Positions 12,394 through 45,314 of a stretch of DNA of 45,788 nucleotides are shown one piece after another. This DNA is from Candidatus Doudnabacteria bacterium (lineage in GTDB: Bacteria; Patescibacteriota; Doudnabacteria; UBA920; O2-02-FULL-48-8). Where the stretch lies: NCBI GenBank assembly GCA_016186915.1, contig JACPKU010000007.1, positions 1 through 45,788 on the forward strand, in the 5' to 3' direction. Position 1 is the stretch's first letter, and each line of letters starts with the position of its first letter. The notes below the pieces were generated by a model that was not told the DNA's origin, searched no databases, and saw nothing but the letters and a program-made list of their open reading frames with translations. Both the position numbers and the translations under genes were made by a program.

Positions 12394-12939
12394 TTAAATA
12401 TTGAACATTTTCTCTAGTTCGTTCTTCCTGTCCATCTCCTGACAAATAAGTAGTCGGGTATATTTTCTGACGCGGTAATATTCAGCGATAAAATCTACTT
12501 CGTCTTCACACGGATAGGGGCAGACCCAAACACTTTTTTGAAGATACTTAAAGCCCAGCTCCCGCAGTTTGCTGGTAAAAGCCAGACGCGCCGAATTGAG
12601 CGAAACCGGCACATCAAAAATCACTATTCGCCAAAGTTTATCCCAACGCTTCGGCTTCTCTATCTTTAGATCGTCAACTTGATATTTCAAAATTTTTTCT
12701 TTACCGTTTTTAGTGAGTTTCATGACGATTTTGTTGCCTTCATAACTCATAGAAACCAGACCGTCTTTTTTAAGTTTCTCTAACGATCTTTTAAAATTAT
12801 CCTTTCTGGTTTTACTAAAATCACCAAAACGGCCAAATGCTGCAAACAGGTTGGGAGCCGCTGCAGCCACCACTATCACTCCGGCTAATCCCAAAGCCAA
12901 AAGGACTCCCTTCGCCACTTGTTTTCTACTGATTTTCAT
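12394..12939 (-). CDS. membrane-anchored wHTH + Cas2/PaaX-C-like regulator
   Basis: TM, wHTH (LEKLKKDGLVSMSYEGNKIVMKLTKNGKEKIL), WDKLWRIVIFDVPVSLNSARLAFTSKLRELGFKYLQKSVWVCPYPCEDEV ferredoxin-like domain. Confidence 0.75.
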   Translation of the reverse strand: MKISRKQVAKGVLLALGLAGVIVVAAAAPNLFAAFGRFGDFSKTRKDNFKRSLEKLKKDGLVSMSYEGNKIVMKLTKNGKEKILKYQVDDLKIEKPKRWDKLWRIVIFDVPVSLNSARLAFTSKLRELGFKYLQKSVWVCPYPCEDEVDFIAEYYRVRKYTRLLICQEMDRKNELEKMFNI

Positions 12940-34400: not shown

Positions 34401-34652
34401 TCAGTCAATCTCAATCAATTTATGCGTGCTTTTGTTGCCAGACTTGATATGGATGCTGCTTGGAGCCACATTGAAATGCTCAGCCAAAATTTCGATCACG
34501 GCTTCGTTGGCCCCGCCCTTTTGCGGGATCGCAGTGGTCCAGATTTTGTATTCGTCCAAATCCAGTTCCTCCAACCTGTCTTCATGCGCGTGGGTTTGGA
34601 CGTGCACTCGAATAATGCGTGACATACATTTCAGAACTCCTCTCTCCCTCAA
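34401..34652 (-). CDS. DUF167 (YggU-like) protein
   Basis: KIWTTAIPQKGGANEAVIEILAEHFNVAPSSIHIKSGNKSTHKLIEID. Confidence 0.85.
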   Translation of the reverse strand: MRERGVLKCMSRIIRVHVQTHAHEDRLEELDLDEYKIWTTAIPQKGGANEAVIEILAEHFNVAPSSIHIKSGNKSTHKLIEID

Positions 34653-34678
34653 GGGAGAGAGGCTGGGAGAGAGGGTGC
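34633..34678. repeat. left bracket of DUF559 gene (ctctctccctcaagggagagaggctgggagagagggtg)
   Basis: hairpin plus single arm. Confidence 0.8.
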
Positions 34679-34682
34679 AAGA

Positions 34683-35027
34683 TCACTTAATTGCTCGGAA
34701 AATTTTATCTAAAACGTCTGGTAATTTCTTTTCAATTTCACTATTCCAAAATTTGAGGACTTTATAACCTGCTTTTGTAGCATAATCTATTTTCTTTTTA
34801 TCTTCGACTTTGCCAGTGCCTTTATGACCAAAACCATCCAATTCGATCAACAATTTCTTTCGTTTAGCTCCAAAATCAAAAATATACTGCCCGAGCACAA
34901 TTTGTCTTTTAAATTTAATCCCAGAGTTATTCGCCCTTAGATGTTCCCACAAGAGCGATTCCCAAATGGTTTGCCTCGTTCTTAAGTCCTTGCTATGGGC
35001 AATCATAACACGGGACAACTTAACCAT
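34683..35027 (-). CDS. DUF559 (Vsr-like) nuclease-fold protein
   Basis: LRTRQTIWESLLWEHLRANNSGIKFKRQIVLGQYIFDFGAKRKKLLIELDGFGH. Confidence 0.93.
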   Translation of the reverse strand: MVKLSRVMIAHSKDLRTRQTIWESLLWEHLRANNSGIKFKRQIVLGQYIFDFGAKRKKLLIELDGFGHKGTGKVEDKKKIDYATKAGYKVLKFWNSEIEKKLPDVLDKIFRAIK

Positions 35028-35030
35028 AAT

Positions 35031-35546
35031 CTACCTCTCCCTTGTTCCCTCTCCTTTAAAGGAGAGGGAAGATCTATATTGTTGTACCAATTCGTATGCT
35101 CCAAAAAATATACTGACGTAAAACAAATCTCCCAAAACTGTATTTTTGAAAAACGGCAGAGCGTTGATATAAGATGAAAGAATCCCGGTTAGATCGTGTG
35201 GATACATCGTGGGTGAATAGAAGAAAGCAAAATTAGTAATCAGATAAAATAAAACTGATCCGAATAAGGCGCCGCCAAAAATTGTGCCAATATTTTTGTG
35301 TTTCTTAATGGCAAGCCCAATCAGCCCGATCAGAAGGAAAGAGCCGTAAACCATTATCCGGCTTTGGAGTGAATCAAAGCCAATGAAAAAATCTGAAATA
35401 AACATAGCAAGAAGCGGCAGAATTAAGGCTTGTTTTTTATTTAGATAAGTGCCGCCGAAAAGGGCAATGGCTGCGATAGGCGCAAAATTTGCTGGGTGCG
35501 GAATCACCCGCAACAGCGCGCCGATTAGAATAATTATGTAAGTCAT
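35031..35546 (-). CDS. DUF6580 / ECF-transporter S-component-like membrane protein
   Basis: ALLRVIPHPANFAPIAAIALFGGTYLNKKQALILPLLAMFISDFFIG; C-terminal SLSFKGEGTRER derives from repeat. Confidence 0.75.
   Translation of the reverse strand: MTYIIILIGALLRVIPHPANFAPIAAIALFGGTYLNKKQALILPLLAMFISDFFIGFDSLQSRIMVYGSFLLIGLIGLAIKKHKNIGTIFGGALFGSVLFYLITNFAFFYSPTMYPHDLTGILSSYINALPFFKNTVLGDLFYVSIFFGAYELVQQYRSSLSFKGEGTRER
35032..35076. repeat. right bracket of DUF559 gene
   Basis: ctacctctcccttgttccctctcctttaaaggagagggaagatct. Confidence 0.8.
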
Positions 35547-35552
35547 CGAATT

Positions 35553-35963
35553 TTAGTAATCTCCAATTTTTTCCAACTTCCACTCAATTCTCTCTCCGTT
35601 TTTTGTTTGGTATTGACCGGCCCCGACTTGTGCTTTCTGGCCGTTGGCATAAAACGCCCAAAAATGTGTGTTGGCTGGCTCAATCCCGTCAATCGAAAGG
35701 ACAAACTCTCCAAGCCCGCCAAAATCTTGCGTTTCAACGCTGTGAGCTTCTTTCAGCAACTCTAACGCCGTATGGCCTTCTACGCCTTGATAGGAAATTG
35801 TGCTTGCTGGAGCTTGTTGAACAGCCGGGGCTTCCTGAATTTCTGTTCGGTCAATCGTAAGATCCGCTTGCGGCCGGGACGGTGCGCGAGTGAGAGCAAA
35901 AGCCACGCCAATTACCGCAATGATCACAATGATTACAAACAGTTCTATTCTTTTGGCATTCAT
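35553..35963 (-). CDS. membrane-anchored DUF4430 (transcobalamin beta-domain-like) protein
   Basis: N-terminal TM; GHTALELLKEAHSVETQDFGGLGEFVLSIDGIEPANTHFWAFYANGQKAQVGAGQYQTKNGERIEWKLE. Confidence 0.8.
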   Translation of the reverse strand: MNAKRIELFVIIVIIAVIGVAFALTRAPSRPQADLTIDRTEIQEAPAVQQAPASTISYQGVEGHTALELLKEAHSVETQDFGGLGEFVLSIDGIEPANTHFWAFYANGQKAQVGAGQYQTKNGERIEWKLEKIGDY

Positions 35964-35973
35964 AAGTTATTCA

Positions 35974-36573
35974 TTAAGTGCGCCCAAACATACTAGCATA
36001 TTTCTTTTCTTCCTCAAAAGTCATGGGTATATCATCCTGAATCTTGTGCTGCTTACAATATTCGAGGAACAATGTCGAATAACCCTTATTAATCCCTTTG
36101 GTTAAAGACAGTCCTAATTTTGGCAAAAAAACATCCAGGGTGTTTTCCGCCGCCTCTATTTCCAGAAAATCTCCCAAAAAAGGCAGTTTATGAAATTCCA
36201 ATACTAGTCCTTCCAATTCGAATTTCGTCACAAACTTCTCCTTGATACGAAAATGATAAAACCCGATCTTTCTCAAAATCTCATCCATAACTTCGAAATT
36301 CTCTATTTTTGTCTGAATTTCAAATCTTTGCAGCAAATTCTGATGCTCCTCGCCCTTTTCCTTGTACGTAAAAACATTCCCATATGGGGCCTTTCGTAAT
36401 CTTAAATGCTTGCCGGTTGGATTGTCAAAATCAAAGTCTCCGGCTTGATTGTTGTACATAATATCCGACTCCAGTCCTTCTTGCTCGGAAATTTTTATTC
36501 CGCCCAAGGCCGCCACTTTTTTCATCAGAGCTTCCGGGTTGTCTAATTTTATTTTAACCTCAATCTCTTGCAT
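35974..36573 (-). CDS. CYTH-domain (class IV adenylyl cyclase-like) protein
   Basis: MQEIEVKIKLDNPEALMKKVAALGG..KHLRLRKAPYGNVFTYKEK. Confidence 0.88.
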   Translation of the reverse strand: MQEIEVKIKLDNPEALMKKVAALGGIKISEQEGLESDIMYNNQAGDFDFDNPTGKHLRLRKAPYGNVFTYKEKGEEHQNLLQRFEIQTKIENFEVMDEILRKIGFYHFRIKEKFVTKFELEGLVLEFHKLPFLGDFLEIEAAENTLDVFLPKLGLSLTKGINKGYSTLFLEYCKQHKIQDDIPMTFEEEKKYASMFGRT

Positions 36574-36579
36574 AATTGT

Positions 36580-37110
36580 TCAAAAATCTATTCCCCGCTG
36601 CGCTAGTATACCTTTGTAATACGGGTGTTTTATCATTCGCATCTCGGTCACTAAGTCCGCAGCCTCGATTAATTTCTTGATGCGCTTATGGCCAGTCAAA
36701 CACAGGTGCACGGATTTGGGTTTGGATTTAATAATTTTTAACACATCGTCTGTACTTAAAAGTTTGGATTCTATCGCAGAGATTGCTTCGTCCAAAACAA
36801 CCAAGTCGTATTTTTTGCTTTTCAAAGCCTTGATACTTTCTTTCATGGCATTCTTTGCGGCCTTTATATGCTCTTCAATCGGTTTGCGATCTCCCAAGAT
36901 GCCCACGAATCCGCGGCCCATTAGTTTAACTTCAACATTTGGCAAGCTCGCTAAAATTTTCCGCTCCCCTGACGGCCAATCACCTTTGACAAATTGCAAA
37001 AATAAAACCTTAAACCCTGTGCCAGCAGCACGTATGGCTAATCCTGCTGCGGCACTAGTTTTTCCCTTTCCATCTCCTATATAAATTAGGGTTAAGCCTT
37101 TTTGATTCAT
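36580..37110 (-). CDS. cobO: corrinoid (cob(I)alamin) adenosyltransferase, CobA/CobO type
   Basis: GLTLIYIGDGKGKTSAAAGLAIRAAGTGFKVLFLQFVKGDWPSGERKIL..YDLVVLDEAISAI. Confidence 0.93.
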   Translation of the reverse strand: MNQKGLTLIYIGDGKGKTSAAAGLAIRAAGTGFKVLFLQFVKGDWPSGERKILASLPNVEVKLMGRGFVGILGDRKPIEEHIKAAKNAMKESIKALKSKKYDLVVLDEAISAIESKLLSTDDVLKIIKSKPKSVHLCLTGHKRIKKLIEAADLVTEMRMIKHPYYKGILAQRGIDF

Positions 37111-37111
37111 G

Positions 37112-37525
37112 CTATCTAATTAAATTTAAGTCAGCATTTAAAATGGTGGGTTTAATGGCTTGCAGCTCAGTTTTGTAGATTGGATTGTCGGGAATTGGGT
37201 TAAGTAAATATATTTTTTGTTTCAAATAATAGGCAAGCGTGATATCCATAAATGAATTGCCGCCAATATAATTCTTAACGCCGTTTTTGTCGTAATTTAG
37301 GATCAACAACGCATCGCTGTTTTTCATACTATTCCAAAACGATTCGATCGCATTCTCGGAAAACTTTTGTTTCAATTTAATTTGTTCTTTCTCTTTCTGC
37401 GTTTTGCCGACCAGTTTCTCGGTATTCAAAGACAAGAATACCTGGTGGCCCATCTGTTCAAGCTTGCGCTTAACCTCCACCATCTGTTCTGCAAATTGCA
37501 TACTCCCACCCACGGCGATTTTCAT
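37112..37525 (-). CDS. nucleoside 2-deoxyribosyltransferase-like fold protein
   Basis: MKIAVGGSMQFAEQMVEVKRKLEQMGHQV...SDALLILNYDKNGVKNYIGGNSFMDITLAYYLKQKIYLLNPIPD. Confidence 0.65.
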   Translation of the reverse strand: MKIAVGGSMQFAEQMVEVKRKLEQMGHQVFLSLNTEKLVGKTQKEKEQIKLKQKFSENAIESFWNSMKNSDALLILNYDKNGVKNYIGGNSFMDITLAYYLKQKIYLLNPIPDNPIYKTELQAIKPTILNADLNLIR

Positions 37526-37613
37526 AAATTCTCTTTCGCTCCAAGCATAATTTTTAAGGCGGCGGTAACCCGCCGCCTTTCCTTTCTTTTCTTTATTCAC
37601 TTTCGAAATGCGG

Positions 37614-37724
37614 AACGCGAGGCGACGGGCTGCAAATTAACCCGCGCAGCACGACGGTGCAAGCGAGTAGGCTGCTCCGCCAGCAGGCGGAGACAGCCGG
37701 TAATTTACAGTCTGTCGCCGAGCA
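37614..37724. repeat. multi-branched inverted-repeat element, copy 2
   Basis: GGCGACgGGCTGcAAATTA / TAATTTaCAGtCtGTCGCC; CTCCGCC-AGCA-GGCGGAG. Confidence 0.85.
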
Positions 37725-40331
37725 TTAACATTTCGAATACCCACACATTTCGCATTTCGTACACCCTTCTGCCATCACCAGCATATTCCCGCACTCTGGA
37801 CAAGCCGGGGCATGGCCCAAATCCGCCACTGACACTTTCTGCGCCACCATGGTCGTGCCATTGGTCTTGATCTCCGTGGTCACTGACTCATACACCAATT
37901 CTTCTTGCGGCTGGACTAATTTCGGCTCGATCTTGGGCAAATCAAGTTTCAGAGTGGTTTGTCCGCGCTTGGTGTGATTTTCCAAAACATTGGCAATCGC
38001 ATCCGGCAGAGACAAAATCCGCTCGCCGTTGTGAAATACCGGATCCGGCCCTCGGATGCCTTTGAGCTGGTCAATCACGTCAGAGATAGAGATTCCAGAA
38101 CGCAAAGACAGAGAAATCATCCGACAGATCGCCTCGGTTTGCGCGCCAAAGAACCCACCAGCCTTACCCAGCTGGGAAAAAACTTCAAACGGTCCGGTTT
38201 CGTCTTCGTTGATGGTCACGTAAAGATTGCCGTATGCTGTGGATATTTTATAGGTTGAACCCTGCATCACATCCGGCCGTTCTCTGGGTGAGATGTGTCC
38301 TATGTTCACAAGCCCTGGATTGGACTTAAGCTCTGGCGCCATTTCTATCTTTTGGTTCTTGGCCTCCACCTGTTCGGCTGCGTCCTTGCCCAATTTTTTA
38401 TGATCCACGGCCAAAATCTGCTCGTCTCTGGAACCGTCCCGATAAATCGTCCCGCCTTTGCAGCCTAGGTCATACATGGTTTCGTACAATTTTTTGGTTT
38501 GCTCAACAGTGTAATTTTCCGGCGCATTCACGGTCTTGCTAATTGCACTGTCAGTCCAGCGCTGCACCGCGGCCTGCACGGCCACGTGTTCTTCCGGACT
38601 TAACTCCATGGCAGTCGCATAATAATCCGGCAGCTCCTCGCCCGGATGCTCATCCAGCCAATTTTTGGCCAACTTAATATGCTCCTGATGCACACCAAGC
38701 CGGGATTTGCGAAAATAAGTCCAAGAAAAAAACGGCTCAATCCCAGTAGAAGTGCCGACCATCGTCCCTACCGTGCCTGTGGGCGCTTGGGTCATGATAG
38801 TGACATTGCGGATGCCGTACTGGCCGACCAAATGGCGGATATAGTCTGGCATCTGCTTCATATAGCCGCTTTGTAAAAATTTTTCTTTGTCGAATCTCGG
38901 AAACGAGCCTTTCTCGCGCGCCAAATCCACTGAAGTTTCGTAGGCCACCACTGCGATGTACTGGTACAGTTTGTCGATAAACTTCACGGCTTCCGGTGAG
39001 CCATACCGCAGCCCCAGATGAATCAGCATCTCTGCCAAACCGATCGTACCCATACCCACCCGGCGCTCGCTCATCTGCTGAAGCTTGTTCTCCTCAAAAA
39101 AGTAAGGGGTGGCGTCAATCACGTTGTCCTGGAAACGCACCGCAGAAGACACCGTGGTTTTAAGTTTGTTCCAATCCACGTCCTTTTTCTCCATGTCCAC
39201 GTGCTTGGCCAAATTAACATGTCCCAAATTGCACACGCCCCAAGCCGGCAGTGGCTGTTCACCGCAGGGATTGGTGCAGGAAAGAGGGGCAAAGTACCAA
39301 GAGTTGGAATAATGATTCGCTCGATCTATAAAATACATTCCCGGTTCAGCCGAAGCCCAGGCAGAAGAAATGATGTTGTCCCAGATATCCCGCGCCTTCA
39401 CGGTTTTATGCTTGACCACCTTGCCGCCCACTTGCTTCCAGCGCTTGATGTCTCCGTTCCAATACTCTTTATACAAAGGATCAGAAGGGTCAGGAAAAAT
39501 CAGATCCCAGGCTTCGTCATTTTTTACAGCTTGCATAAAGTCATCGGTAATTCCGACCGAAATGTTCGCGTTGGTAATTTTGCCCGCTTCTTTTTTGGAA
39601 TTAATAAAATCCAAAACATCGGGATGCCAGACATTGAGAATGAGCATCAGCGCTCCTCGCCGCGAGCCCCCTTGTTCAATCAGGCCAGTGACAAAGCTAT
39701 ACAAAGACGCCCAGGATACGGCGCCTGAAGACCGGCCGTTTACGCCTTTCACATAGGAATACCGAGGGCGCAGGGAAGAAACATTGATGCCCACCCCGCC
39801 GCCGCGCGACATAATTTCGGCCATTTGCGTCAAAGTTTCAAAAATCCCACCCCGGCTGTCGTCAGGAGACGGGATCACATAGCAATTATAAAAAGTTAAA
39901 TTCTGACCGGTGCCGGCGCCGGTAAAAATTCTGCCGGCAGGCACGTATTTCCAATCATCCATCAGTTCCCGGAACCTGCCTTCCCATTCTGCCTGCAATT
40001 CCTCGGTTTCCTCCACGCTGGCCACGTGGCGCGCCACCCGATCAAACATTTGTTCTGGTGCAGTTTCCAAAGGCTTGTCCACATGCTCGACTGCCCGCGT
40101 CTCTGTGGAGCCATCGCGCATCTTCACGGTCACCTGCCGGTTTGTTTCATCAATGCTTTCCACTGTGCCAATCTCTCGGTGTCCGGTTTTGAGATTGACG
40201 CAGACCACGGCCAAATCGCCGATCTTCAAGGTTTCTTTCTTTGCATCTTTTACCGCGTATCGATCCAGAAAAATTTTTTCACCCAGTTCGCTTAAGGCAT
40301 TTTTGGTTCTTGCCTGCAAGTTCTCGTGCAT
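37725..40331 (-). CDS. nrdJ: adenosylcobalamin-dependent (class II) ribonucleoside-diphosphate reductase
   Basis: GRIFTGAGTGQNLTFYNCYVIPSPDDSRGGIFETLTQMAEIMSRGGGVGINVSSLRPRYSYVKGVNGRSSGAVSW; C-terminal CxxC zinc-ribbon. Confidence 0.95.
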   Translation of the reverse strand: MHENLQARTKNALSELGEKIFLDRYAVKDAKKETLKIGDLAVVCVNLKTGHREIGTVESIDETNRQVTVKMRDGSTETRAVEHVDKPLETAPEQMFDRVARHVASVEETEELQAEWEGRFRELMDDWKYVPAGRIFTGAGTGQNLTFYNCYVIPSPDDSRGGIFETLTQMAEIMSRGGGVGINVSSLRPRYSYVKGVNGRSSGAVSWASLYSFVTGLIEQGGSRRGALMLILNVWHPDVLDFINSKKEAGKITNANISVGITDDFMQAVKNDEAWDLIFPDPSDPLYKEYWNGDIKRWKQVGGKVVKHKTVKARDIWDNIISSAWASAEPGMYFIDRANHYSNSWYFAPLSCTNPCGEQPLPAWGVCNLGHVNLAKHVDMEKKDVDWNKLKTTVSSAVRFQDNVIDATPYFFEENKLQQMSERRVGMGTIGLAEMLIHLGLRYGSPEAVKFIDKLYQYIAVVAYETSVDLAREKGSFPRFDKEKFLQSGYMKQMPDYIRHLVGQYGIRNVTIMTQAPTGTVGTMVGTSTGIEPFFSWTYFRKSRLGVHQEHIKLAKNWLDEHPGEELPDYYATAMELSPEEHVAVQAAVQRWTDSAISKTVNAPENYTVEQTKKLYETMYDLGCKGGTIYRDGSRDEQILAVDHKKLGKDAAEQVEAKNQKIEMAPELKSNPGLVNIGHISPRERPDVMQGSTYKISTAYGNLYVTINEDETGPFEVFSQLGKAGGFFGAQTEAICRMISLSLRSGISISDVIDQLKGIRGPDPVFHNGERILSLPDAIANVLENHTKRGQTTLKLDLPKIEPKLVQPQEELVYESVTTEIKTNGTTMVAQKVSVADLGHAPACPECGNMLVMAEGCTKCEMCGYSKC

Positions 40332-40359
40332 GTTTGTTTCCTTTAGTTAATTCTTTAAT

Positions 40360-40466
40360 TATAATAGCGATCCGAATGATCCAAATCATCATCCGAATTA
40401 TCCGAATCTTAAACTCAAATTATTCGTGTCATTCGGATGTCATTCGTAGATTGGGATCGCATTAAA
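40360..40466. repeat. about 95-bp dispersed element between nrdR and nrdJ
   Basis: gcgatccgaatgatcc...attcgtgtcattcggatgtcattcgtagattgggatcgc. Confidence 0.75.
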
Positions 40467-40920
40467 GTTTTTTCGCTTCGCGGACGAATTCGTCTACGTC
40501 CTGGAATTGCCTGTACACGGAGGCAAAACGAATGTAAGCCACCTGGTCTTTCTTTTTAATCTGTTTCATCACAATACTGCCGATGTCTTTGCTGCCAATC
40601 TCGCTTTTCCCGCTTTTTTGAATGTCCTGTTCAATCGCGGATACAATCTGGATAAAATCATCTCGGGTCAGCGGCCGTTTTTCAAATGCCTTGCGGATAC
40701 CCGACTCGATCTTTTCCCGCATATACGGCTGCTTGGTGCCGTCGCGCTTAACCACGGTCAGATCCAGAATTTCCATCTCCTCATGGGTGGAGAACCGAAA
40801 ACCGCATTTAATGCATTCGCGCCTGCGGCGAATCGCCATACCTTCGTTAAGCGGCCGGGAATCTAGGACTTTGGTATCTTCATGAGAACACTTGGGGCAC
40901 TTCATAAATTTTGGGCTCAA
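40462..40920 (-). CDS. nrdR: transcriptional repressor NrdR
   Basis: MKCPKCSHEDTKVLDSRPLNEGMAIRRRRECIKCGFRFSTHEEME. Confidence 0.97.
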   Translation of the reverse strand: MSPKFMKCPKCSHEDTKVLDSRPLNEGMAIRRRRECIKCGFRFSTHEEMEILDLTVVKRDGTKQPYMREKIESGIRKAFEKRPLTRDDFIQIVSAIEQDIQKSGKSEIGSKDIGSIVMKQIKKKDQVAYIRFASVYRQFQDVDEFVREAKKL

Positions 40921-41318
40921 AAAAAATAAAAGAGATTACTCCTGGATTAAGCCTCTCGGTTAAGCTTGTCAAAATGAACGAACTATGTTTGATTTCGATT
41001 TTGTGCCTGCAAACCTTAAGATTTCAAGGTTCAACACAATATATAGTATTAACCTTATTTAATATAGCCCTATATATAGAACCTGTCAAAAATCGGTTTT
41101 TCCGCAATTTTTTCAAATTTTCCCATAATCTGGAAAAACTTATCAACAAAATCGCCCCTCCCAAAGTTTTCAATGTCAAGGCCAAAGCCAAAGACAAAAA
41201 TGGGATGATAACGTTGTAGAAAAGCATGATTATAATAATTCTGGGTCTCGCCCCGTACCTCCCTTGCCGGCAGGCAGGATGGTGCGGGGTCAAGGCCTCT
41301 CAATCCCTTCTTTTTAGC

Positions 41319-41425
41319 GAGAGATGGATATAAAACTAGCCTGCGCAGCACGGCGGTGCGAGCAAGCAGGCCGCCCCGCCAGCAGGCGGGGACGGCCGAT
41401 AGTTTTATAGCCCATCTCGAGCGGC
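41319..41425. repeat. multi-branched inverted-repeat element, copy 3
   Basis: GAGATGGatATAAAACTA / TAGTTTTATagcCCATCTC; CCCCGCC-AGCA-GGCGGGG. Confidence 0.85.
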
Positions 41426-41443
41426 ATATGCCCGAGCGCTTTC

Positions 41444-41472
41444 TTGACAAACTTTTTTTTGAGGTTTAAGAT
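41444..41472 (+). promoter_or_regulatory. sigma70-type promoter TTGACA-N17-TAAGAT
   Basis: direct reading upstream of riboswitch. Confidence 0.8.
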
Positions 41473-41498
41473 CAATTTACCTTAATAAATTAATATCC

Positions 41499-41755
41499 AG
41501 ATAACTCCCCGCAAGGGGTCGGTTAGGGAAACCGGTGCGTTCGTCTCTAAAAAAGACACTAGTCCGGTGCTGTGCCGCAACTGTAATTGTATCTTTCAGT
41601 TTAGTTCTCCCCTTTTAGGGGAGATGTCACGAAGTGACAGAGAGGTCTATAACCCTCTCTCGGCGCTTCGCGCCACTCTCTCCCTCAAGGGAGAGAGTTA
41701 AGCTGAAGATTACATAAGCCAGAGTACTAACCAGTTATTTTGCCAGTTACTCTCT
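41499..41755 (+). promoter_or_regulatory. cobalamin (B12) riboswitch
   Basis: ggttagggaaaccggtgcg..agtccggtgctgtgccgcaactgtaa....aagccagagtactaacc conserved core and B12-box-like motif. Confidence 0.9.
41604..41698. repeat. DUF559-type REPIN-like insert within riboswitch peripheral arm
   Basis: ttctccccttttaggggagatgtcacgaagtgacagagagg..ccctctctcggcgcttcgcgccactctctccctcaagggagagag. Confidence 0.8.
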
Positions 41756-41799
41756 CTTCGAGCAAAGAGAAGGGATTTTGTTTTCTCCAAAAAACAATC

Positions 41800-41832
41800 T
41801 TACCCGTCTCTTAACCAAGACGGGTAATTTTT
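41800..41832 (+). terminator. intrinsic terminator (riboswitch expression platform)
   Basis: TTACCCGTCT-cttaacca-AGACGGGTAATTTTT. Confidence 0.85.
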
Positions 41833-41844
41833 ATGGAGAAAAAT

Positions 41845-43644
41845 ATGAGAAAACGAACTGCTTGGGTTTTAATCGGGTTACTAATTTATTTTCCGCTCAA
41901 CGCCTTAGCAACATTTAACTCTTCCGGAGCACAGAGTTACCTTTTGGCGCACGGCAGCAACCCCTGGTCTACGATCGCATTGGTTTCGCTGAACGCTTCC
42001 TCGATACCCACCAATCATCTGACCAATGTTTCCGGTAATTCAGCAATCGAGTACGCCGCCCCGATCCTGGCTATAACCGCGCTGAACAAAGATCCAAGAA
42101 GCTTTGGCAGTACTGACTTGGTTTCGAAGTTAAAATCTTTTCACGACAACGGCCAAATTGGCGATCCCGTAACCCTCAACGACGATTTATTCGGCATCTT
42201 GGCTCTGGTTTCCGCAGGAGAAAGCAAGGCTAGCCCAATCCTTACAGATGCCAAAAACTTTTTGACCTCAAACCAAAACCCAGACGGCGGCTGGGGATTT
42301 ACCACAAGTAGTCCGTCGGATACTAATATGACCGCGGCGGGTATCTTGGCCTTAAAATCTTTAGACATTAACACTGCTGATAATCACATCCAATCGGCCT
42401 TGAACTATTTACAAGCCGCGCAGAACGATGACGGCGGCTTTCCTTATGACCCCCAAAGCTCATTTGGCACAGCTTCTGATTCTTCCTCAACTGCTTGGGT
42501 AATCTGGGCGCTGAACAGCCTTAACATCAATCCCGCGACCTGGAACAAAACCGGCGGGAACCCAACTAGTTATCTGGAAAGCACGCAAACTAACAGTGGC
42601 TTTTTTGAGTATCAATCCGGCTCAGGCGAAGACGCTTTTTCTGCCATCACCACGGCTTACGCTGCAATCGCGCTGCAAGGGAAAACTCTACCGCTAAACA
42701 TTATCAAGTCGGCAAGCAGTCTGCCAGTGATTCCTTTCCGCATTGAAGGATCCCAGTCCACGGTTTGTGAAGGGTCCATCCCTGGCCCGACTGCTTTGGA
42801 TGTAGTGAAAAATGCCGCTGAAATTTGCAACTTCACTTACAATGTCCAGGAACTTAGCTTCGGTCCTTATCTAAAACAAATCAACAATGACACGGCGCAA
42901 GGCTTGATTGGCTGGATCTATCTGGTCAATAACACTCCTCCCAGCGTGGGAGCGGCTGACTTTGTGCTTGGAGCCTCTGACGAACTGCTCTGGTTCTATG
43001 GTAACTTTGACGATAAACCTACCCGATTAAACTTATCCAATCCCCAAATCAGTACAAACCAATCAGCCACAGTAACAGTGGAGTCATTTGCCAACAATAC
43101 CTGGACGCCTCTCAACGCCGCTGAAGTATTTTATGCAACCAGTACTGCCACCACTGGCGCAAATGGACAGGCAACCATCAGCCCAGATGACGGCTTCTAC
43201 AAAATCTACGCAGAGAAACAAGGATTTATCCGCAGCAACCGCAAGCTTCTGAAAGTTGGCGAACCTGCGCAAGGATCAGTCAACCTTTCTGCCAATGTTT
43301 TACCGGGTGACGTGCTTGGCGAAGATAACGAACAATCTTCAGTGAGCTTCACCATGGATCTGAACAGTGTTGATTTTGGCACGCTTAATCCCGGCACAGA
43401 AAAATCCCAAACCATCAAGCTTACCAACACTGGCTCAACTGCCCTGACAATAGAGAGTATTGTGGAAGGTGATAGTCTGTTTGTTGATCATCTGCTCATT
43501 GATCAAAGCTTGTGGAAAGTGTTCAGCACAAAGCTGGCCGTGGATCAAGCAAAAAGCCAGCAGCTCAAACTTAAGATTCCTGCCAGCTATTCAGGCAGCG
43601 GCAGCAAAACCGGCACCCTGACTTTCTGGGCACAAGCCAACTAA
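41845..43644 (+). CDS. secreted intrinsic-factor-like protein: prenyltransferase/squalene-cyclase-like repeats + DUF4430 + C-terminal Ig-like domain
   Basis: signal peptide; FLTSNQNPDGGWGFTTSSPSDTNMTAAGILALKSL, YLQAAQNDDGGFPYDPQSS; ALDVVKNAAEICNFTYNVQ..GWIYLVNNTPPSVGAADFVLGASDELLWFYG. Confidence 0.8.
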   Translation: MRKRTAWVLIGLLIYFPLNALATFNSSGAQSYLLAHGSNPWSTIALVSLNASSIPTNHLTNVSGNSAIEYAAPILAITALNKDPRSFGSTDLVSKLKSFHDNGQIGDPVTLNDDLFGILALVSAGESKASPILTDAKNFLTSNQNPDGGWGFTTSSPSDTNMTAAGILALKSLDINTADNHIQSALNYLQAAQNDDGGFPYDPQSSFGTASDSSSTAWVIWALNSLNINPATWNKTGGNPTSYLESTQTNSGFFEYQSGSGEDAFSAITTAYAAIALQGKTLPLNIIKSASSLPVIPFRIEGSQSTVCEGSIPGPTALDVVKNAAEICNFTYNVQELSFGPYLKQINNDTAQGLIGWIYLVNNTPPSVGAADFVLGASDELLWFYGNFDDKPTRLNLSNPQISTNQSATVTVESFANNTWTPLNAAEVFYATSTATTGANGQATISPDDGFYKIYAEKQGFIRSNRKLLKVGEPAQGSVNLSANVLPGDVLGEDNEQSSVSFTMDLNSVDFGTLNPGTEKSQTIKLTNTGSTALTIESIVEGDSLFVDHLLIDQSLWKVFSTKLAVDQAKSQQLKLKIPASYSGSGSKTGTLTFWAQAN

Positions 43645-43648
43645 ACTT

Positions 43649-44146
43649 ATGAAAAAAATCTGGCTTTCGGCTCTGCTGTTTCCTTCTATGGTGTCTGCCG
43701 CTGGCATTGATATTAGTCCTGCCAAGATCGATCTGGAAACCCACAAAGACCAGACAGCAGAACAAGTAATCACGGTGGCAAATCCCACTGCAGATGTGCA
43801 GGTGTTCGAAGTGTATGCAGATGATTTTAAAAATCTGTTTACCTTTACACCTGCCAGTTTTACCCTGGAAGCAGGCGAGAGAAAAACAGTAACCCTTAGT
43901 TTTGATGGTAAGTCAACCGATTCGGCATTGCTGTCCACCAATATCTCGGTGCTGGCCACCCCTCTGGCAGACGCCAGATTTAATGCCAACACTGGGGTCA
44001 AGATCCCGACCACGGTAAGAATCTCGGAAGGCGGTAATTCTTCGAACTGGGTAAACAAGGATCTGATATTTTTTGGAACGCTTGGACTAGTTCTGCTTTA
44101 CTTAATCTTCAGACTCATCAAAGCCAAGCAGGATCACAATATCTAA
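43649..44146 (+). CDS. secreted Ig-like/MSP-like protein with C-terminal TM anchor
   Basis: signal peptide; GIDISPAKIDLETHKDQTAEQVITVANPTADVQVFEVYADD; LIFFGTLGLVLLYLIFRLIKAKQ. Confidence 0.75.
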   Translation: MKKIWLSALLFPSMVSAAGIDISPAKIDLETHKDQTAEQVITVANPTADVQVFEVYADDFKNLFTFTPASFTLEAGERKTVTLSFDGKSTDSALLSTNISVLATPLADARFNANTGVKIPTTVRISEGGNSSNWVNKDLIFFGTLGLVLLYLIFRLIKAKQDHNI

Positions 44147-44395: not shown

Positions 44396-44962
44396 TTATA
44401 GACTAAAAAATTTACGCAACTCTTTGTCTAAATCCGTATAAACTACTTCCGCGAATAATGTATACTTGGCCACCTCATAGTATTCTGCCACTGTTTGAAG
44501 TTCCTTCCGACAATCATAAGGATATGCAAATAAGCTGCGCTGAATGTTATAACAACCTAGCGATTTTAACTTCCGTCGCATCATATTTCTGGCGGTGGTC
44601 AATTCCTGTGGTATATCAAAACTAAACAAACGCCACTTGCCGTCCCAGGCCTTGGGCTTGGGCAGGGCCAGCTTCTCAAACTCGACTCGCTTAAGCCACT
44701 TTCGTCCTTTTGGCAAAAGCCTAATTAACCAGCCCTCGTTGGTTTTAGTCAAGGCCACATATCCTTTCTTTTGCAACTTTTTAACTTCACGGTTAAACTC
44801 GTAACGGCGAAAATAGTATCTCGTAGCCCCGATTACTAAAGCGTACAAAGCAAAAGGAGATGTAATAGCCGCCGGGATTATAAAGGCCCAGATTAACCCA
44901 TCCGCAATTTTGTCCGCAATGCCCTTGGTTTCAATTTTCGGCTTCTTCTTCAATTGGTACAT
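44396..44962 (-). CDS. membrane-anchored wHTH + Cas2/PaaX-C-like regulator
   Basis: TM region; WDGKWRLFSFDIPQELTTARNMMRRKLKSLGCYNIQRSLFAYPYDCRKELQTVAEYY; start at 44962. Confidence 0.75.
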   Translation of the reverse strand: MYQLKKKPKIETKGIADKIADGLIWAFIIPAAITSPFALYALVIGATRYYFRRYEFNREVKKLQKKGYVALTKTNEGWLIRLLPKGRKWLKRVEFEKLALPKPKAWDGKWRLFSFDIPQELTTARNMMRRKLKSLGCYNIQRSLFAYPYDCRKELQTVAEYYEVAKYTLFAEVVYTDLDKELRKFFSL

Positions 44963-44993
44963 AATAGCACTATAGGTCGATGATGTTACAATT
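44959..44993. repeat. direct repeat acataatagcactataggtcgatgatgttacaatt overlapping start of Cas2/PaaX-like gene 2
   Basis: matches 44338-44372. Confidence 0.8.
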
Positions 44994-45051
44994 TTTATAT
45001 ATTCAGTATAGCACAACTGTAAAAATTTCCATGTCAACAAAAAGCAAATTA

Positions 45052-45104
45052 GACAAAAAAATAGGCGGTGCGAGGGGTTAACCCACTCGCCCGCCTTTTG
45101 GTTT
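45052..45104 (-). terminator. hairpin terminator
   Basis: minus: AGGCGGGCGAGTGGGTTAACCCCTCGCACCGCCTATTTTTTT. Confidence 0.8.
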
Positions 45105-45107
45105 CGG

Positions 45108-45314
45108 TCAGCTCGAGACAGCCACTTCGTCTTGCTTCGCGAAGTAGTAGCCCTTACCGTCGTCGAGACAGACCGCGTTGCGCTCGCCGAGCGTCTCGGC
45201 CAGCTTGAGGAACTGGCCATCTGTGCCCGACGAATGCCGGGCGTAGAATTGTCCCGCTGGCGCCACCATCTCGAACGTGGTATCCGGCCTCGGCGGCCTC
45301 GCCCCTCGAATCAT
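45108..45314 (-). CDS. orphan protein
   Basis: MIRGARPPRPDTTFEMVAPAGQFYARHSSGTDGQFLKLAETLGERNAVCLDDGKGYYF; AAGGAGGACGC-ATG. Confidence 0.55.
   Translation of the reverse strand: MIRGARPPRPDTTFEMVAPAGQFYARHSSGTDGQFLKLAETLGERNAVCLDDGKGYYFAKQDEVAVSS

Follow-up and report, generated by a model that had tools for sequence, protein, structure and literature searches.

How a bacterium of the candidate phyla radiation (CPR) might capture vitamin B12 is the question raised by contig JACPKU010000007.1 of a Candidatus Doudnabacteria bacterium, the whole of which (45.8 kb, hereafter the window) was analyzed. The source genome, of the CPR (Doudnabacteria-type), is 728 kb long and 97% complete. The window encodes a secreted protein that joins an alpha/alpha toroid to a DUF4430 domain and an immunoglobulin (Ig)-like C-terminus, as well as a membrane-tethered DUF4430 protein, the membrane protein DUF6580, the adenosyltransferase CobA, and the adenosylcobalamin (AdoCbl)-dependent ribonucleotide reductase (RNR) NrdJ. 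The purpose of this system is, in our view, very probably corrinoid acquisition. Taken as a whole, it is likely the B12-scavenging route of a B12-auxotrophic CPR bacterium, in which transcobalamin-like surface binders supply an S-component working without an energy-coupling factor (ECF) module, thereby feeding CobA and NrdJ. B12 scavenging had already been proposed in a preliminary description of the locus, and hidden Markov model (HMM) matches, predicted folds, neighborhood conservation, and the absence of CbiC, CobS, and FecCD support it.

Gene content, domains, folds, the riboswitch, gene-order conservation, and the absence of transport and synthesis genes were computed directly; families of the open reading frames (ORFs) in the window were assigned by Pfam/NCBIfam HMM searches (Table 1). 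On the forward strand, a promoter-like site, a cobalamin riboswitch, and a terminator-like hairpin precede the toroid-DUF4430-Ig gene, and 4 bp after it begins the gene for an Ig-like protein with a transmembrane (TM) helix, the putative surface anchor or partner of the toroid protein. About 0.9 kb away, the reverse strand carries nrdR, nrdJ, a gene for a 162-aa protein, cobA, a CYTH gene, the gene for the TM-anchored DUF4430 protein, and DUF6580, in this order, with gaps of 1-10 bp from the 162-aa gene through DUF6580. The HMM matches bore out the opposite-strand DUF4430, DUF6580, CobA, NrdJ, and NrdR genes where the preliminary description had placed them, and its TM-anchored Ig-like second gene was recovered with a weak Ig/ASH-like match and a C-terminal TM helix. 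The range it gave for the system started too early, as the genes at 34401-35027 lie outside.

Table 1. Features of the proposed B12 locus and its flanks, in window coordinates.
Feature	Coordinates	Strand	Evidence or remark
YggU/DUF167-like (by eye) and DUF559 genes	34401-35027		outside B12 system
DUF6580, membrane protein with the fold of S-components, proposed to import corrinoid	35031-35546	-	DUF6580 6e-50
Stand-alone DUF4430 protein, N-terminal TM anchor, transcobalamin beta-domain-like	35553-35963	-	DUF4430 4e-16
Co-directional CYTH-domain protein, encoded between CobA and DUF4430	35974-36573	-	HMM match
CobA/BtuR cob(I)alamin adenosyltransferase	36580-37110	-	8e-60
162-aa protein between NrdJ and CobA	37112-37600	-	no significant family match
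NrdJ, AdoCbl-dependent RNR	37725-40331	-	NrdJ_Z 6e-180
NrdR regulator	40462-40920	-	HMM match
Two NrdR-box-like sites 5' of nrdR	41034-41082		15/16 and 11/16 consensus matches
Sigma70-like promoter TTGACA-17-TAAGAT, ahead of riboswitch	41444-41472	+	consensus match only
Cobalamin riboswitch aptamer with ~117-nt insertion	41485-41749	+	clade covariance model
Terminator-like hairpin and T run, putative expression platform just 5' of Shine-Dalgarno/start	41800-41827	+	consensus scan
Secreted toroid-DUF4430-Ig protein, 603 aa, transcobalamin/intrinsic-factor-like	41833-43644	+	HMMs, fold search
Ig-like protein, 165 aa, signal-like N-terminus, C-terminal TM helix	43649-44146	+	weak Ig/ASH-like match

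The toroid protein likely starts at 41845, as the preliminary description had implied, with GGAG six bases upstream. Its matches to SQHop_cyclase_C (PF13243, 6e-12) and Prenyltrans (PF00432, 4e-6) indicate an alpha/alpha toroid, after which come DUF4430 (PF14478) at residues 319-390, above the cut-off at 2.6e-7, and the Ig/ASH-like C-terminus. In a phmmer comparison, the protein matched transcobalamin-2 with E=0.0025. The AlphaFold model built from 15 sequences (pLDDT 81.7, pTM 0.56) contains a helical toroid, and transcobalamin, haptocorrin, or intrinsic factor occupied all of ranks 1-15 in the fold search against the PDB (E 2e-12 to 2e-9), outranking terpene cyclases and prenyltransferases. 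The domain order of intrinsic factor and transcobalamin ascribed to this protein is thus upheld by both the HMMs and the fold ranking. Toroid orthologues exist in many relatives, and most of them keep the Ig/TM gene directly downstream.

The relation to animal B12 carriers extends to the stand-alone DUF4430 protein. A profile of 18 sequences, comprising 17 stand-alone domains and the domain of the toroid protein in the window, ranked human haptocorrin (1.4e-7) first in the PDB, followed by transcobalamin (4.5e-7) and intrinsic factor (1.3e-4). Moreover, the invariant Trp of the DUF4430 W-F/L-Y motif falls on a Trp of both haptocorrin and transcobalamin in the alignment. Mouse major histocompatibility complex chains, returned at E~0.1 when the PDB was searched with the single DUF4430 protein sequence, were noise, which the profile search resolved.

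The cobalamin riboswitch had also been predicted, and this prediction held with a model of the clade, albeit not at the Rfam gathering threshold, where RF00174 gave no riboswitch in the window (21.0 vs 31.5 bits, local E 0.006). With the core motifs intact, it is an insertion of ~117 nt (about 41592-41708) in a peripheral arm that brings the score below the cut-off. This insertion is hairpin-rich, of the CTCTCTCGGCGCTTCGCGCC... type. A clade covariance model made from the riboswitches of 18 relatives, with the window left out, found the element at 55.9 bits (E=4.8e-10) as the sole match in the 45.8-kb window and in the whole genome. Since the automatic secondary structure of this model holds 8 pairs only, and was not used as structural evidence, the match is mainly evidence from the core sequence, helped by its position and by the relatives whose cobalamin riboswitches pass Rfam cut-offs. 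The promoter and terminator named in the preliminary description have consensus matches as well, although chance alone would also yield such sites in a consensus scan. Among toroid orthologues with intact upstream sequence, most have a cobalamin riboswitch 5' of the gene (in the set of orthologues retrieved, at least 13).

Cobalamin riboswitches of relatives were also seen in other settings. In several relatives (L190-L194; G015, G003, G001, G030, G019), one heads a different conserved three-gene cassette. Its first gene encodes an acidic protein of 390-850 aa with no Pfam match (checked in part), the C-terminus of which finishes with AA (ssrA-like); the other two encode a ClpB-like ATPase of the double-AAA kind and a DNA-transport ATPase resembling VirD4/TraG. 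Neither DUF4430 nor DUF6580 is present in G015 and G019, or in G027 and G031, whose first genes are similar; the cassette is possibly a second B12-controlled system. Just 3' of other cobalamin riboswitches (L041, L043, L087, L090, L091, L094) lie genes for small secreted proteins with a twin-arginine translocation (Tat)-like MNRRxF/MKRRxF N-terminus, in several loci between the riboswitch and the toroid gene; those checked had no family match beyond a weak Tat signal.

Conservation of the neighborhood, which the preliminary description had suggested examining, was evident in relatives. DUF6580 is present in 44 of 98 relatives, and in about 37 of these 44 a DUF4430 gene lies within 300 bp, judged from coordinates. 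We also took 80 DUF6580 loci from named genomes; as these were fetched by DUF6580, their gene neighborhoods are not independent of the query, whereas the position and strand of riboswitches are. Within 300 bp 5' of DUF6580, 66 of the 80 loci have DUF4430 (51) or the toroid (15). Of the 37 riboswitches found at E<=0.005, 34 sit directly 5' of DUF4430 (29) or the toroid (5) on the same strand. What are two separate units in the window is one unit in relatives: riboswitch, toroid, Ig/TM, DUF4430, and DUF6580 follow each other as a single unit in four loci (L125, L164, L169, and L185), in one of which (L164) NrdJ-CobA is directly upstream. Other arrangements are NrdJ-CobA-riboswitch-DUF4430-DUF6580 (G068/L053) and riboswitch-DUF4430-[DUF4430+toroid]-DUF6580 (G096).

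The next question is what DUF6580 does at the membrane. Its model, built from 72 sequences, reached pLDDT 94.3, and the high-probability Foldseek matches (0.97-1.00) were the S-components BtuM, RibU, and 4huq_S. Among the invariant residues of DUF6580 are His17, Asn20, and Asp52. Against BtuM, the TM-score was 0.54 with hydroxocobalamin and 0.66 with cyanocobalamin (8c7p: TM-score 0.66, probability 0.99). Furthermore, a profile of 22 DUF6580 sequences had a single PDB match, 6fnp_A (E=7e-4), and 6FNP is ECF-CbrT, a vitamin B12 transporter (PMC5997447). DUF6580 occurs in at least 429 genome contigs. In two Ignavibacteria it follows a riboswitch (83-88 bits, Rfam-level) and genes for a BtuB-like protein, a Dph6-like ATPase, and a BtuF-like protein, and an Omnitrophota genome has the order CobA-DUF6580-riboswitch-BtuB-like. 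In diderms, DUF6580 therefore accompanies known outer-membrane and periplasmic B12 proteins. The Dph6/ATP-pyrophosphatase-like gene lies between the BtuB-like and BtuF-like genes at 8294-8956 in L156 and 8222-8911 in L147, the family assignment coming from a match in L156.

The alternative that survives best is that DUF6580 is a normal S-component, the ECF module of which is too divergent for the EcfT (CbiQ) model. CbrT, its closest sequence relative in the PDB, requires an ECF module (PMC5997447), and ABC ATPases, which occur in every genome, could serve. However, EcfT (PF02361), the ECF component searched for genome-wide, had no match in the own genome and none in 97 of the 98 genomes searched, yet the same search was positive in 10 of 14 controls. 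Nor was any CbiQ-like gene found beside DUF6580 in the 80 loci, which contained only four distant ABC-type ORFs. We consider this alternative unlikely. The absence of EcfT places DUF6580 outside a normal ECF transporter; any transport by it would be that of a solitary S-component, as with BtuM, or would involve another partner. The S-component role assigned earlier thus stood with respect to fold and the kinship to CbrT, but not as part of a normal ECF transporter. By analogy with BtuM, ECF-module-free transport by DUF6580 is moderately favored. We lean, by a narrower margin over an even chance, to the broader proposal that DUF6580 represents a new family of B12 importers working without an ECF module, which is common across Patescibacteria, occurs also in Ignavibacteria and Omnitrophota, and is fed in Patescibacteria by a transcobalamin-like surface relay of the secreted toroid and beta-grasp protein, its Ig/TM anchor, and the membrane-tethered beta-grasp protein.

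A second, less probable alternative concerns the ligand: instead of B12 itself, the surface proteins and DUF6580 might deal with a corrinoid precursor, with some other cobamide, or with another ligand belonging to the riboswitch regulon. Cobinamide is a further substrate of CbrT (PMC5997447), and one study suggested that archaeal transcobalamin-like domains bind other metabolites (PMC1796856). Against this, the only identified consumer is the AdoCbl-dependent NrdJ, adjoining CobA, and the genome has no CobS, so that cobinamide could not be completed by the known route. As the B12-binding domain PF02310 had no match in the own genome, NrdJ remains the visible B12 consumer. The lack of corrinoid synthesis genes had been claimed for the locus, and CbiC and CobS were indeed without a match in all 30 genomes examined for them (the own genome and 29 others). 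This absence also led us to reject a role of DUF6580 with cobalt instead of corrinoid. Of a BtuCDF importer, raised earlier as a potential objection, the FecCD/BtuC permease (PF01032) likewise had no match in the own genome. Finally, a role of the toroid protein unrelated to B12, either as a secreted enzyme akin to terpene cyclases or as a structural surface protein, is highly improbable, and terpene cyclase identity was discarded: squalene-hopene cyclases are its best sequence matches, but B12 carriers rank first by structure, the toroid is fused to DUF4430, a cobalamin riboswitch lies upstream in the window and in orthologues, no DxDD motif is visible by eye, and operons are shared with stand-alone DUF4430 and DUF6580.

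For the scavenging system, we infer the following sequence, from the binding of corrinoid and its relay from one binder to the next to transport without ECF and trapping by CobA. Low cobalamin inside the cell would make the riboswitch permissive for transcription or translation of the genes for the toroid-DUF4430-Ig protein and for its Ig/TM partner. At the cell surface, the toroid and beta-grasp domains may capture corrinoid in the manner of animal transcobalamin, and the Ig/TM partner would retain the toroid protein there. The TM-anchored stand-alone DUF4430 protein could then hand the corrinoid to DUF6580, which, by analogy with solitary BtuM, would carry it across the membrane without an EcfA/EcfT module. 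CobA would adenosylate the imported corrinoid, presumably trapping AdoCbl for NrdJ.

Several points weigh against this interpretation, which rests on computation. The toroid model overlaps transcobalamin across both domains, albeit with an rmsd of ~23 A and a TM-score of 0.27-0.46; the comparison with intrinsic factor advised in the preliminary description thus yielded the fold but not the domain placement, and the closed cleft of the animal proteins is not predicted. For DUF6580, the Foldseek E-values are weak (0.19-0.5) despite the high probability, so that its fold assignment relies on the combination of probability, TM-score, and an independent match by sequence. No Cys is found among the invariant or nearly invariant columns of the 72 DUF6580 sequences, leaving no conserved counterpart of the essential cysteine of BtuM. 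In the window, the reverse-strand unit holding DUF6580 is separate from the riboswitch unit. Lastly, the absences are only as certain as the sensitivity of the HMMs and the 97% completeness of the genome allow.

Parts of this system have precedents. In the accessible part of their study, Burroughs, Iyer, and Aravind (2007; PMC1796856) described bacterial toroid-SLBB fusions with second SLBB paralogues and proposed B12 scavenging. Those bacteria are likewise B12 auxotrophs, in which a secreted toroid fused to the transcobalamin beta-grasp is accompanied by another SLBB protein. Their operons usually contain CbiO/CbiQ (ECF), whereas here the genome has no CbiQ and the place at the membrane falls to DUF6580; CPR lineages, a riboswitch, and linkage to NrdJ/CobA are not among the features described in that part. 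Judged by it, the toroid-DUF4430 architecture and the scavenging idea have been known since 2007, and the DUF6580 role and the ECF-free version appear new. Our literature search, which covered few subscription journals and preprints, found nothing on DUF6580 or on B12 uptake in CPR bacteria.

In Lactobacillus delbrueckii, the ECF-CbrT locus nrdJ-cbrS-cbrT-pduO similarly sets a B12 S-component gene beside an AdoCbl-dependent RNR and an adenosyltransferase (PMC5997447), PduO occupying the place of CobA in the window. CbrT alone does not allow growth on cobalamin and needs EcfA/EcfT (PMC5997447), while EcfT is absent here. That a solitary S-component can take up B12 has its precedent in BtuM, which is almost confined to organisms without an ECF module (PMC6072759). 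DUF6580 shares the S-component fold and a genome without EcfT, but belongs to a different sequence family, has no conserved counterpart of the axial ligand Cys80, and is paired with transcobalamin-like binders. Compared with intrinsic factor, transcobalamin, and haptocorrin of animals, which share the order of toroid and beta-grasp domain and are the best PDB fold matches, the window protein has an extra Ig-like C-terminal domain and a TM-anchored partner, and its ligand would presumably pass to an importer in the membrane instead of being endocytosed. With respect to BtuB-BtuF-BtuCD, DUF6580 of Ignavibacteria lies in the riboswitch-BtuB-BtuF operon where BtuCD would be expected.

Turning to the neighboring genes, the starts of the two NrdR-box-like sites are 33 bp apart, and the first is the only site in the window above 12/16. 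This pair and the co-directional genes suggest that cobA-DUF4430-DUF6580 might also be under deoxynucleotide (dNTP) control. Elsewhere in the window, the reverse-strand genes at 12394-12939 and 44396-45220 encode proteins alike in their C-terminal parts, the latter weakly matching PaaX-type regulators and Cas2. Similar genes are directly 5' of some toroid riboswitches (L093, L096, L101).

CPR bacteria, lacking most biosynthesis, must import cofactors, and their B12 uptake has apparently not been described. The system proposed here would give a function to DUF6580, a domain of unknown function, and would couple dNTP synthesis directly to the uptake of B12. It also suggests a bacterial counterpart of the intrinsic-factor architecture, working with an importer that lacks an obvious ATP motor.

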